From: Endomicrobium sp.
GTDB lineage: Bacteria > Elusimicrobiota > Endomicrobiia > Endomicrobiales > Endomicrobiaceae
Reading direction: 5' to 3'
Assembly (NCBI GenBank): GCA_031266185.1
Contig: JAISBM010000017.1
Coordinates: forward strand, 1 to 39,918
DNA: 39,918 nucleotides
Shown: positions 18,192 to 24,144 of the stretch, one piece after another
Position numbering within the stretch: position 1 is the first letter of the stretch
How the letters are laid out: the number at the start of each line of letters is the position of its first letter
Translations under genes and position numbers: made by a program
The notes under the pieces: generated by a model
Databases searched by the model: none
Told to the model about the DNA's origin: nothing
The model's input: the letters and a program-made list of their open reading frames with translations, nothing else

Positions 18192-20030
18192 TTATTCAAC
18201 TGTTACAGATTTCGCCAAATTCCTTGGTTGATCAACATCACAACCCAAATTAACAGAAATATAATAAGCTAACAATTGTAAAGGAACAACAGAAATTAGA
18301 GGTGAAACAAATTCGTCAGCTTCTGGAACGTAAATAACATGATCACTTTTTGTTAATATTTCTCTATTACCTGAGCTCGCTATCACAATAATAATTGCTC
18401 CTCTTGCTTTAGCTTCTTCCATATTGGAAATCACTTTTTCATAAACTTTACTATTTGTGGCTATAGAAACTATAGGCATGGATTCGTCAATTAAAGCAAT
18501 TGGGCCATGTTTCATTTCACCAGCAGCATACCCCTCTGCGTGTATATAAGAAATTTCTTTGAGTTTTAATGCACCTTCAAGAGCTACAGGATAGTTTACA
18601 TGTCTACCCAAATATAAAAAATCTTTTTTTTGGTCAAACAATTTTGCTATTTTGTTTACTTCTTGTGCATTTTCTAAAAAATCTCCTATTTTTACAGGTA
18701 TCTCCCACAACTCTTGTAAATACTTTTTTATGTCTTCTTTAGATAAAGATTCTTTTTTAGATGCAAAATCTAAAGCAAGAATATAAAGTGCTGTAAGTTG
18801 TCCTGTAAAAGCTTTTGTTGAAGCTACTCCTACTTCTATACCGCAATGAGTGTAAACTACATGATTAGTTTCACGACTTATACTTGAACCTACAACATTA
18901 CATACTGCAAGCGTTTGGCAACCTTTACTTTTTGCAAGTCGTAAAGCAGCTAAAGTATCTGCAGTCTCACCAGATTGTGAAATAGCTATAACTAAAGTTT
19001 TTTCACTTAAAATAGGATTCCTATACCTAAACTCTGATGCAATGTCCACCTCGGTAGGAATTTTTGCAAAATTTTCAAACAAAAATTTTGATACAAAACC
19101 AGCATGGTAAGATGATCCACAAGCAATTAAACAAATATTTGAAATGTTTCTAACATCTTCTTTATTTAACTTTACTTCTTCTACGTGTATCTTGCCCTCA
19201 TTTGGATAAATTCTTCCTCTTAGCGTATCCTCTATAGTATGAGGCTGTTCAAAAATTTCTTTTAGCATAAAATGCTTATATCCCGCTTTTTCTGCTAAAA
19301 CTGGATCCCAATTTATAGTTTTTATTTCACGATTTTGTTCATTACCTTCTTTATCAATAATTACAATTTTGTCTTTTGTTATTTTAGCTATATCACCATT
19401 TTCAAGAAAAATCATATCTCTTGTATAAGGAAGCAAAGCAGGTATATCTGAAGCGATAAAATTTTCTTTTACTCCAACACCAATTATTAGTGGAGCTTCT
19501 TGTCTTGCACAAATTATTGTGTACGGATCATCTTTACATATTACACCTAAAGCATAAGAGCCTTTAACTTTACTTAAAGTTTTTTTAACAGCATCAAATA
19601 AGTCATCTTTATAATATTTTTTTATAAGGTGAACTATAACTTCCGTATCTGTTTGTGACTTAAAATCTTTTAAGTTTTCTTTTAATTGACTTTTCAAATC
19701 TGCATAATTTTCAATTATTCCATTGTGCACAATAACAATACTGTTACTAGCATCTGTATGAGGATGCGCATTATTTTCAGAAGGTTTCCCATGTGTTGCC
19801 CAACGCGTATGCCCTATAGCAATGTTTGAGCTAATGGGATCTTGTGCTATTTTGTCTGTTAAATCACAAAGTTTGCCAACGCTTCTTCTGATATGCAATA
19901 AATTATTACAAACTACAGCTATACCAGCAGAATCGTAACCTCTGTACTCAAGTTTTTTTAAACCTTTTAGCACAACTTCAACAGCATTTTTAGCATTTTC
20001 TTTGCCAACATAGCCTACTATCCCACACAT
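18192..20030 (-). CDS. glmS: Glutamine-fructose-6-phosphate aminotransferase
   Basis: Makes glucosamine-6-phosphate from fructose-6-phosphate and glutamine, the first step to UDP-GlcNAc. 612 residues, the full length. The N-terminal glutaminase starts with MCGIVGYVG, whose Cys2 is the nucleophile. YRGYDSAGIAVV and GHTRWATHGKPSENNAHPH are conserved. Two SIS domains bear CGSSYHAGFVSKF and ISQSGETADTLAAL, and the tail VDQPRNLAKSVTVE is the family end. It overlaps the pdxJ end by 13 bases. glmM, the next enzyme in the pathway, is one gene upstream. I see no glmS ribozyme, and the overlap leaves no room for one. Confidence 0.98.
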   Translation of the reverse strand: MCGIVGYVGKENAKNAVEVVLKGLKKLEYRGYDSAGIAVVCNNLLHIRRSVGKLCDLTDKIAQDPISSNIAIGHTRWATHGKPSENNAHPHTDASNSIVIVHNGIIENYADLKSQLKENLKDFKSQTDTEVIVHLIKKYYKDDLFDAVKKTLSKVKGSYALGVICKDDPYTIICARQEAPLIIGVGVKENFIASDIPALLPYTRDMIFLENGDIAKITKDKIVIIDKEGNEQNREIKTINWDPVLAEKAGYKHFMLKEIFEQPHTIEDTLRGRIYPNEGKIHVEEVKLNKEDVRNISNICLIACGSSYHAGFVSKFLFENFAKIPTEVDIASEFRYRNPILSEKTLVIAISQSGETADTLAALRLAKSKGCQTLAVCNVVGSSISRETNHVVYTHCGIEVGVASTKAFTGQLTALYILALDFASKKESLSKEDIKKYLQELWEIPVKIGDFLENAQEVNKIAKLFDQKKDFLYLGRHVNYPVALEGALKLKEISYIHAEGYAAGEMKHGPIALIDESMPIVSIATNSKVYEKVISNMEEAKARGAIIIVIASSGNREILTKSDHVIYVPEADEFVSPLISVVPLQLLAYYISVNLGCDVDQPRNLAKSVTVE

Positions 20031-20767
20031 AGATTACCTTTATTTATAAGTTTTTTCATGTCTTTTACTGCAGTTCTAAGACCCATAAAAACACTTTTTG
20101 CAATAATTGAAAAACCTATATTAAATTCTTTCAAGTTTGGAACTTTGCACATATGTTTTACATTATCATAATCTAGCCCATGACCAGCATTTAATAAAAG
20201 ATTATTTTTTGCAGCCTCTTGTGAAACTTCTAAAATTTTTTTAAATTCTTCTTTAAAATCTAAAGAGTTTCCTCCATTTTCTTTATAAAATCGTGCATAT
20301 CTACCAGTATGAATTTCTACAGCATCTGCACCTATTTGACCACACGCTAAGAGTTGGTCTATATCAGCCTCAATAAACATACTAACTATTATTCCTGCTT
20401 TTTTTAATTTATCTACACAACTTGCTAAACTTTTTTTATTCTTTTTAACATCTAAACCACCTTCTGTTGTAAGTTCTTGTCTCTTTTCTGGAACTATACA
20501 AACAGAAAACGGTTTCACATCTAAAGCTATTTTAATTATCTCGTCTATGGCAGACATTTCAAGATTTAACTTTGTTCTAATAGATTTTTTCAGATCATAA
20601 ACATCTTTATCTTGAATGTGTCTTTTATCTTCTCTTAAATGTACAGTTATATTATCTGCCCCAGCCTTTTCGCATACTAATGCAGCATCAACAACAGATG
20701 GTATATCATCTTTTCTTGCTTGTCTTATCGTTGCTATATGATCTATATTTACACCTAATTTTATCAT
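20018..20767 (-). CDS. pdxJ: Pyridoxine 5'-phosphate synthase
   Basis: Condenses 1-deoxyxylulose-5-phosphate with 3-amino-2-oxopropyl phosphate to pyridoxine phosphate, in the DXP-dependent vitamin B6 route. About 249 residues from the ATG at 20767, with GAGG five bases upstream; the start at 20788 would run into glmM and is rejected. Motifs include MIKLGVNIDHIATIRQAR, TVHLREDKRHIQD, AVEIHTGRYA and LNAGHGLDYDN. It is inserted between glmM and glmS, so it is cotranscribed with amino-sugar synthesis. DXP supply is not visible in this window. Confidence 0.97.
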   Translation of the reverse strand: MIKLGVNIDHIATIRQARKDDIPSVVDAALVCEKAGADNITVHLREDKRHIQDKDVYDLKKSIRTKLNLEMSAIDEIIKIALDVKPFSVCIVPEKRQELTTEGGLDVKKNKKSLASCVDKLKKAGIIVSMFIEADIDQLLACGQIGADAVEIHTGRYARFYKENGGNSLDFKEEFKKILEVSQEAAKNNLLLNAGHGLDYDNVKHMCKVPNLKEFNIGFSIIAKSVFMGLRTAVKDMKKLINKGNLCVG

Positions 20768-20781
20768 TAAAACCTCTTTTT

Positions 20782-22119
20782 TTAACAATTAATCTCTGCA
20801 CAAATACTATTGGTTAAATCTTTTGCAACTTTCTTAATTGTCTTCAAATTTTTCCCTTCAACCATAACTCTTAGAAGGTTTTCTGTACCAGAATATCTTA
20901 CAAGAATGCGCCCATCTTTCCCTAATAACTGTTCGGACTCCTTTAGCAATTTATAAGATTTTGAAAGTTGTTCTATAGGTACTTTCTTTTTAATTTTGTT
21001 GTTGATAAGGACCTGCGGGGACTTCTCAATATCTTCCATAAATTCAGACATCGTTTTGTCTAACTGGCATAATGCTCCAAGCAACATAATAGAACTAAGA
21101 AGTCCGTCTCCTGTAGTTAAAATATCTTTAAAAATAAAATGTCCTGACTGTTCACCCCCAAGCGAGGACTTATATTTCTTCATATCTTCAATAACATACC
21201 TGTCACCAACTTTAGATAAAACAATATTTATTTTTGCATCTTCCATGGCATGCGTAAGCCCTAAATTTGCCATAACTGTAGAAACTAAAATATTATTTTT
21301 TAATTTATTATTATTTTTTAACCATTTTGCCATTGCAGCAAGGAAATAATCTCCATCTTTAATTGTGCCTTTTTCATCTACACATATTACTCTATCTGAA
21401 TCACCATCAAAAGCAAAACCACAAAAAGCATTATGTTTTTTTACATGCTCTGCTACAACTTCTGGATATAAAACCCCACAATTAAAATTAATGTTTTTCC
21501 CATTCGGTTTGATATTTAAAGCAATAATTTTTGCACCAAGTTTTTTTAGTACATAAGGTGCAACTTTATAAGAGGCCCCATTTGCACAATCAACAACTAT
21601 AGTTTTCCCTTTAAGGGATTTGCCTATAAAATTTTTTATTAAAAAATCTTCATAAAATTTTATAAGAGTTAAATCTTCTTTAACAGATAATTTATTGTTT
21701 TCAATATCAACTTTTAAATCTAGATACTTATTAATTTTACGTTCTATTTTTTCTTCAACACTATCAGCAAGTTTAAATCCTCTTGAATTAAAAATTTTAA
21801 TTCCATTATCTATATAAGGGTTATGACTTGCAGATATTACAATTGCCGCAGAATAGTTGCCTTGTTTAACAACTAAAGAGGCCGCAGGGGTAGGCATAAC
21901 ACCACTAAAAACAGGGTTTACACCCACTTTAATAATACCTTTTGCAAGTTCCTTTTGTATTCTCTTTCCAGATTCTCTTGTATCTCTAACCATTAGAATA
22001 TTTTTACTGTTTCCTAAAACTTCTGCAATTGCCATTCCAACAATATTAAGCGTTTTGTTGTCAAATGGAAAGCTCAAACTACTCCCTCTTATACCATCTG
22101 TCCCAAATAACTTTGTCAC
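20782..22119 (-). CDS. glmM: Phosphoglucosamine mutase
   Basis: Converts glucosamine-6-phosphate to glucosamine-1-phosphate for UDP-GlcNAc synthesis. About 445 residues. The start is the GTG at 22119 (V-TKLFGTDGIRGS), five bases after GGGG and overlapping the stop of the upstream 32-codon cdaR stub as GTGA. The longer frame from 22182 would add a hydrophobic head read out of frame through that stub, and I reject it. Motifs are the phosphoserine loop VISASHNPY, the metal loop FAFDGDSDRV, sugar-binding GGEQSGHF, and phosphate-binding VRYSGTENLLRV. GlmM is known to interact with CdaA in other bacteria, and cdaA lies just upstream. Confidence 0.96.
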   Translation of the reverse strand: MTKLFGTDGIRGSSLSFPFDNKTLNIVGMAIAEVLGNSKNILMVRDTRESGKRIQKELAKGIIKVGVNPVFSGVMPTPAASLVVKQGNYSAAIVISASHNPYIDNGIKIFNSRGFKLADSVEEKIERKINKYLDLKVDIENNKLSVKEDLTLIKFYEDFLIKNFIGKSLKGKTIVVDCANGASYKVAPYVLKKLGAKIIALNIKPNGKNINFNCGVLYPEVVAEHVKKHNAFCGFAFDGDSDRVICVDEKGTIKDGDYFLAAMAKWLKNNNKLKNNILVSTVMANLGLTHAMEDAKINIVLSKVGDRYVIEDMKKYKSSLGGEQSGHFIFKDILTTGDGLLSSIMLLGALCQLDKTMSEFMEDIEKSPQVLINNKIKKKVPIEQLSKSYKLLKESEQLLGKDGRILVRYSGTENLLRVMVEGKNLKTIKKVAKDLTNSICAEINC

Positions 22120-22214
22120 ATATACCCCGCATATAACCAAACAAAGAGCGCAAGAACTAAAGCCAATAATTTTAATTGCCAATTCTTTTTTATTTTGGCA
22201 TAAATTTTTTTCAT
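22116..22214 (-). pseudogene. cdaR: CdaR/YbbR stub: N-terminal membrane helix only (32 codons)
   Basis: Between cdaA and glmM, where cdaR (ybbR) normally stands, an ATG at 22214 one base after the cdaA stop opens a frame of 32 codons. It reads MKKIYAKIKKNWQLKLLALV and LALFVWLYAGYM and then TGA. The basic head, the NWQLKLLAL pattern and a single helix are typical of the start of CdaR, the membrane regulator of CdaA. All YbbR repeat domains of the usual protein are missing. The TGA overlaps the glmM GTG start. It is either a deletion remnant or a still translated membrane peptide; the frame itself has no internal damage. Confidence 0.7.
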
Positions 22215-22977: not shown

Positions 22978-24144
22978 TTAAACTCCTTTAAAAGCTTGAA
23001 TTATTTTTAACACATCTATCGTTTCTTTTACATCGTGTACTCTTAAAATATCTGCTCCACAAAAAGCTGTAAGACAATTTGCTACTATAAAAGACGTCTT
23101 ATCTTCCCCTGCTAAAAGCCTGACAAACCTTTTTCTTGATACTGCACCAACAACTGCTCCTAGAGAAGAAAAAGTGTATATATTTTTTATTAGTTCTAAA
23201 TTATGTTCAACAGTTTTACCAAAACCTGGACCGGGATCTACTGATATATACTCTTCTTGCACCCCAAAACTTAATGCATAATTTCTTCTTTCTAAGAGGA
23301 ACTTAAAAACTTCAGAAGTACAATTTTTATACTTTGGTAATTTCTGCATATTTTTAGGAAGTCCTTTCATATGCATTAATATAAGACCAGCCTTAACATT
23401 TGCAACAAGCTCTGCTAACTTTTCTTTACCTACTCTTAAAGCAAAAATATCGTTGACAATATCTGCTCCTTCGCCAAGAGCAGCTTTTGCTGTTTCATAC
23501 TTATACGTATCTACAGAAATTGGTATTTTAACTTGCTTTCTTATCTTTTTTAAAGCAGGTATCAATCTTTTTATCTCTGTTTTTGCGTCTACAAGATTTG
23601 CGCCAGGCCTAGATGACTCTGCACCAATGTCTATTATACTAGCACCAACCTTTTCAAATTCTAAAGCTCGTTGTTTAGCTTTATCCGGACACGTTAACCC
23701 ATCTCCCGAAAAAGAATTTGGGTCCATATTTATAATGCCCATAACAGCTGGCCTTGATAAATCTAACAATTTATTTTTATATTTAAAAACTTTTTTATTA
23801 TTAACTAATCGTTCCAAATTAAGAGAAACTTCTTTTAATCCAAAAGGTTGTACTTTAAGTTTATCAACTAGTTTTAAAACTTGAGCAACATTTGCAAACA
23901 AAATCAAATCTGAAAAACCTTTCTTAAACCTACTAACATCCTCACTCATAGAAATGTCTGCACCAACGGAAATTGCTTCTTGCTTTAATATGTTTGCAGC
24001 TCTATTATCTATTTGTTCTATAATAACAGGAAAATTTACACCTTTTTGAGCAAGATGCTTATGAACAGCATTTCTACTACCTGTTTTTTTTACGAGTTCT
24101 AAAGCATCTTTAAAATTATTTATAATAGCTTTTCTTACTATCAC
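22978..24144 (-). CDS. folP: Dihydropteroate synthase with N-terminal extension
   Basis: Joins p-aminobenzoate to the pterin pyrophosphate in folate synthesis. 388 residues, about 110-120 more than the common form. The catalytic TIM barrel begins near residue 130 with VMGIINMDPNSFSGDG, then IIDIGAESSRPGA, IPISVDTYKYETAKAAL, GADIVNDIFAL and SVDPGPGFGKTVEHNLELI. The head (KAIINNFKDALELVKKTGS onward) is a separate domain found with some bacterial and archaeal DHPS; its role is unknown to me. The start is GTG at 24144 with AGGA nine bases upstream. It follows folE by three bases. Confidence 0.94.
   Translation of the reverse strand: MIVRKAIINNFKDALELVKKTGSRNAVHKHLAQKGVNFPVIIEQIDNRAANILKQEAISVGADISMSEDVSRFKKGFSDLILFANVAQVLKLVDKLKVQPFGLKEVSLNLERLVNNKKVFKYKNKLLDLSRPAVMGIINMDPNSFSGDGLTCPDKAKQRALEFEKVGASIIDIGAESSRPGANLVDAKTEIKRLIPALKKIRKQVKIPISVDTYKYETAKAALGEGADIVNDIFALRVGKEKLAELVANVKAGLILMHMKGLPKNMQKLPKYKNCTSEVFKFLLERRNYALSFGVQEEYISVDPGPGFGKTVEHNLELIKNIYTFSSLGAVVGAVSRKRFVRLLAGEDKTSFIVANCLTAFCGADILRVHDVKETIDVLKIIQAFKGV

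Follow-up and report, generated by a model that had tools for sequence, protein, structure and literature searches.

The window analyzed here is a 39,918-nt stretch of an Endomicrobium sp. genome (GCA_031266185.1, contig JAISBM010000017.1, positions 1 to 39,918). On its minus strand, the genes for the diadenylate cyclase CdaA and the phosphoglucosamine mutase GlmM are separated by a 32-codon open reading frame, here termed mini-CdaR (Table 1), which translates as MKKIYAKIKKNWQLKLLALVLALFVWLYAGYM and runs from an ATG at 22214 to a TGA at 22118-22116. This ATG is one base away from the cdaA stop (22216), and the TGA shares bases with the GTG start of glmM as GTGA. The undamaged frame and its two tight junctions had been pointed out in a first-pass annotation of this DNA, and the sequence agrees on each point. 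The partner gene encodes a CdaA with DGA and RHR motifs that matches models for both the CdaA_N membrane domain (PF19293) and the DAC domain (PF02457). The peptide by itself matched nothing in Pfam or NCBIfam, as expected for only 32 residues, and an Rfam scan of the window likewise returned no match.

Table 1 Features at the cdaA–glmM junction of the window
Feature	Position	Strand	Remarks
mini-CdaR, 32-codon ORF plus TGA	22116..22214	minus	between cdaA and glmM
Predicted membrane helix, residues 12-28 (WQLKLLALVLALFVWLY)	22131..22181	minus	from hydropathy; conserved K15, A18, A22 and W26
Small-xxx-small motif A18..A22	22149..22163	minus	from column conservation; same columns A/S/C in full-length CdaR
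cdaA, diadenylate cyclase CdaA	22216..22968	minus	TIGR00159 (233 bits), PF02457, PF19293; three N-terminal membrane helices and DAC domain
glmM, phosphoglucosamine mutase	20782..22119	minus	GTG start overlaps mini-CdaR stop
folP	22978..24144	minus	upstream of cdaA; abuts glmM in relatives without cdaA and peptide
pdxJ	20018..20788	minus	downstream of glmM; follows the peptide directly where relatives lack a glmM here

The frame had been read as a typical CdaR/YbbR N terminus stripped of its extracytoplasmic YbbR domains. Both parts of this reading are borne out. A hidden Markov model (HMM) built from the N termini of full-length CdaR proteins, all from other phyla, scored mini-CdaR highest of all 949 frames in the window (21.0 bits, E = 1.2e-5; next-best frame 7.9 bits), the top score across 20 shuffled windows being 15.0. 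Profile–profile comparison of the peptide family with CdaR N termini using hhalign gave a probability of 97.1 and an E value of 7.7e-11. When CdaR N termini were added to a CdaA alignment with MAFFT, they did not come to lie at the helix. Mini-CdaR resembles the CdaR/YbbR proteins of the cdaA-cdaR-glmM operon (Bacillus, Listeria, Staphylococcus and Lactococcus) in its N-terminal membrane helix with the same motif, including the small-xxx-small spacing with A, S or C in the corresponding columns, in its gene place directly after cdaA and often before glmM, and in its expected N-in topology. However, known CdaR proteins comprise ~200-490 aa with several extracytoplasmic YbbR domains, which were present in 10/10 tested full-length proteins bearing this N terminus, whereas mini-CdaR carries no domain past the helix: four residues follow before the stop, and the peptide contains no YbbR domain (PF07949).

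No PF07949 domain, and no full cdaR, was found elsewhere in the same genome, the assembly of which is only 52% complete; for this reason, the count across the phylum, where the domain is absent from 335 of 341 genomes, is the stronger evidence. Five of the six remaining genomes encode single-chain fusions of CdaA, helix and YbbR, and the sixth (G334) contains the domain in a 903-aa frame. Among seven such fusions read, only some passed the PF07949 cut-off. In a set of 80 named loci found via CdaA, the peptide was present at 6/6 Elusimicrobiota loci; readable loci from other phyla with a CdaR-type N terminus have long frames, mostly 200-490 aa, the exceptions being L119 (143 aa) and L134 (cut by the contig end).

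At every level of relationship compared, from the genus through family, order and class up to the phylum, the frame after cdaA again encodes a peptide of 24-36 aa with the same motif. In the phylum-wide search of 341 genomes, cdaA was detected in 224 and the peptide in 153 (E ≤ 1e-3). All 153 possess cdaA, and the peptide was confidently detected in none of the 117 genomes without it (Fisher p = 1e-41, a descriptive value only, the genomes being related). Using our own grouping by A2 E-value, 166 Elusimicrobiota genomes carry the ordinary cdaA type, at least 156 of them with the peptide after cdaA; this number comprises 151 detections at E ≤ 1e-3 and five by inspection (G164, G219, G323, G329 and G331), with G234 and G161 left outside the count. 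The peptide was undetectable in family f8 (G044, G047, G050, G052 and G054) and in G230, G231 and G232, all of which possess cdaA; CdaA can therefore do without it. At the f8 loci read (L042-L046), gyrB is the next gene after cdaA, and the G230-G232 loci (L179-L181) keep cdaA with no detectable CdaR helix. The large family f13 appears to lack cdaA, and its member G140 has a diverged cdaA and a helix peptide on a contig end. Judged from this distribution, the peptide is a phylum-wide feature and not the stub of a recent local deletion; a stub left by a clean deletion was one of two options in the first-pass annotation.

The peptide sequence does not drift freely. For 26 sequences of the genus, the Nei-Gojobori pN/pS was 0.31, and a codon model on the fixed cdaA tree estimated omega at 0.167 in the peptide, compared with 0.104 in cdaA. 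The log-likelihood for the peptide was -1016.4 when omega was free to vary and did not exceed -1073.0 over a kappa grid with omega set to 1 (2dlnL ~113). Among 118 distinct helix cores taken from the retrieved loci, small residues occupy positions 18 and 22 in 93% each, position 15 is K or R in ~95%, and position 26 is W in 86%. Small-xxx-small motifs of this kind are typical of helix–helix contacts in membranes. On these codon statistics, the coding sequence is under purifying selection. In one genome, G010 (L009), the peptide next to an intact cdaA has W26R and stops early, where the helix ends, which may be either a sequencing error or the start of decay; its close relative G013 has an intact peptide.

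The neighborhood data separate the peptide from glmM. Across relatives, the gene after the peptide varies between glmM, pdxJ (L023, L026, L030, L033, L036 and L038) and others, and no other gene was consistently co-located at the loci read around cdaA. In seven genomes of the genus (L278-L284), folP is joined straight to glmM, cdaA and the peptide being gone and glmM kept. Conversely, G006 (L286) and G015 (L285) have cdaA and the peptide intact, and glmM was detected neither at this place nor elsewhere in the genome (assembly completeness 60% and 85%). Where cdaA is a pseudogene (G001, G027 and G297), the peptide is broken too, each time at W26, through a stop codon in G001 and G297 and a frame change in G027. 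The frame is thus not locked between cdaA and glmM, as had been suggested: the next gene varies, and the peptide survives the loss of glmM and vanishes with cdaA when glmM stays. Loss or pseudogenization of cdaA recurs in small-genome members of the genus (L278-L284, L032, L047 and L091), in which c-di-AMP synthesis by CdaA seems to have been given up several times.

In some genomes, the helix belongs to the CdaA chain itself. In-frame fusion of the peptide to CdaA occurs at least twice: in G300, cdaA continues through the peptide as one open frame of 293 codons, and the pair G331/G332 from another genus has in-frame fusions of 306 and 326 residues. The phylum also contains a diverged, second type of CdaA (L188-L209 and L213 in family f28; L210-L212, L214-L217 and L048) that bears this helix C-terminally. 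Its frames are longer in G057 and families f17, f19, f25 and f27, with a YbbR-like region after the helix where read (382-396 aa in the seven read); in family f28, 22/23 chains read stop immediately behind the helix (289-299 aa). Since such trimmed chains exist alongside separate peptides, YbbR was lost and the helix retained in both fused and separate forms. A Sericytochromatia genome (L164:2483-3766) encodes a 428-aa single chain of CdaA, helix and YbbR, the structure model of which (mean pLDDT 71.7) has only moderate confidence for the helix (310-329, in blocks of 67-76). Fusions of CdaA with CdaR are also found in some streptococci (PMC10243994). These and the L164, G057, f17, f19, f25 and f27 proteins are alike in uniting helix and CdaA in one chain; they carry YbbR domains behind the helix, whereas the G300, G331/G332 and f28 fusions stop at it. 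CdaA–CdaR single chains are natural evidence that the helix and CdaA work together. Long open frames in the GC-rich genomes G189, G188, G210 and G195 were considered as further CdaA fusions and rejected as chance upstream extensions in another frame.

A related peptide probably exists in a second phylum. In the WOR-1 genome G342, cdaA is followed by panB. Among the 74 genomes of its phylum, 62 contain cdaA, located beside panB in nearly all of 30 loci read, and none (0/74) has a YbbR domain over the cut-off. The peptide model matched 46/74 at E ≤ 0.01; scores are modest, and across 74 genomes some of the weakest matches may be chance. In 11/11 loci read (L292-L301 and L290), the matching peptide is flanked by topA and panC, away from cdaA. 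By sequence comparison, it is likely homologous to the Elusimicrobiota mini-CdaR. In most bacteria of one phylum, and apparently of a second, nothing remains of CdaR but its membrane helix, a selected peptide of ~30 residues.

CdaR is an activator in some species and a repressor in others. Its mode of action on CdaA has been called unclear (PMC8573169). The two proteins interact via transmembrane domains, with the first membrane helix of CdaA as a possible contact (PMC10243994), and two-hybrid data indicate contact of YbbR with the CdaA membrane region (PMC6368335). Against this background, mini-CdaR probably represents a minimal form of CdaR, in which one helix without an extracytoplasmic sensor packs on the CdaA membrane domain; that it is produced, binds CdaA and affects c-di-AMP synthesis is what we infer. 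The peptide would be made from the cdaA operon and span the membrane once, with its lysine-rich N terminus inside and a few residues (~2-6) outside. With the face formed by A18-xxx-A22 and W26, it would most likely pack on the CdaA membrane helices, adding a fourth, and help CdaA to fold, to oligomerize or to hold a given activity, the sign of the effect not being predicted. Because no domain lies outside, CdaR-type sensing would be missing, and the role should concern assembly, stability or activity of CdaA. Other inputs could still act on the cyclase, for example GlmM, which is a known inhibitor in Firmicutes.

Retention of the helix for its own sake was the second option raised in the first-pass annotation and is the better of its two. 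The other, in which a stub stays translated for no use but the coupling of cdaA with glmM, fits the stop/start overlaps with both neighbors seen in this genome and many relatives; we regard it as scarcely credible. A translational coupling leader for glmM should be retained with its downstream gene and be free in its peptide sequence, neither of which was observed. The amino acid sequence is selected, the next gene varies and the peptide occurs fused to CdaA. Its loss with cdaA and retention without glmM form a double dissociation that excludes such a leader. Highly improbable, too, is a chance frame or the decaying remnant of a recently deleted cdaR. The lack of a full cdaR nearby would fit it, but the occurrence in many families across the phylum at an omega of 0.17 refutes this explanation, and an HMM derived independently from CdaR finds the peptide.

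Two further alternatives accept the peptide as functional. It might be an adaptor on which a separate, unrecognized extracytoplasmic protein, with either a diverged YbbR fold or an unrelated domain, docks and senses. Full CdaR has its sensor outside, and diverged YbbR domains can escape the model, as the incomplete detection among the fusions illustrates; yet the few external residues, the lack of any other gene consistently co-located with cdaA and the absence of YbbR domains in the phylum outside CdaA fusions, bar the single 903-aa frame, make this unlikely. Alternatively, the target could be something other than CdaA activity, the peptide serving CdaA, for example, as a membrane chaperone or as a signal for its turnover, or being a microprotein of general membrane function that merely rides in the operon. 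The likely homologues between topA and panC, remote from cdaA, speak for this, and the function assigned to the peptide is itself inferential. Strict co-occurrence and co-decay with cdaA, the fusions to CdaA and homology to that region of CdaR for which contact with CdaA has been reported oppose it, and we judge it quite unlikely.

Returning to the minimal CdaR, it can be compared with small single-helix accessory subunits of membrane enzymes, for example KdpF and CydX, likewise membrane peptides of ~30 residues encoded in the operon of their enzyme, which stabilize or complete a membrane complex. Their sequences and partners are unrelated to those of mini-CdaR, and we know of no small single-helix accessory subunit for a diadenylate cyclase. 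CdaR, CdaA–CdaR fusions and contact via membrane helices were already known; our literature search retrieved no report of a CdaR made of the helix alone, selected and phylum-wide. A broader proposition, to which we give even chances, is that the helix represents the essential, ancient part of CdaR and the fourth membrane helix of the CdaA complex, the YbbR sensors being optional. At least two phyla would then use a ~30-residue CdaR that annotation overlooks, and the helix would have been freed, fused or trimmed several times independently.

A natural helix-only CdaR separates the CdaA-contact function from YbbR sensing. Its spread across a phylum indicates that the helix can be what counts by itself, which is testable: the peptide offers a test object of 32 residues and predicts that helix-only versions of model CdaR proteins would keep part of their function. 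Beyond the model phyla, c-di-AMP biology also gains a family of microproteins that had been overlooked.
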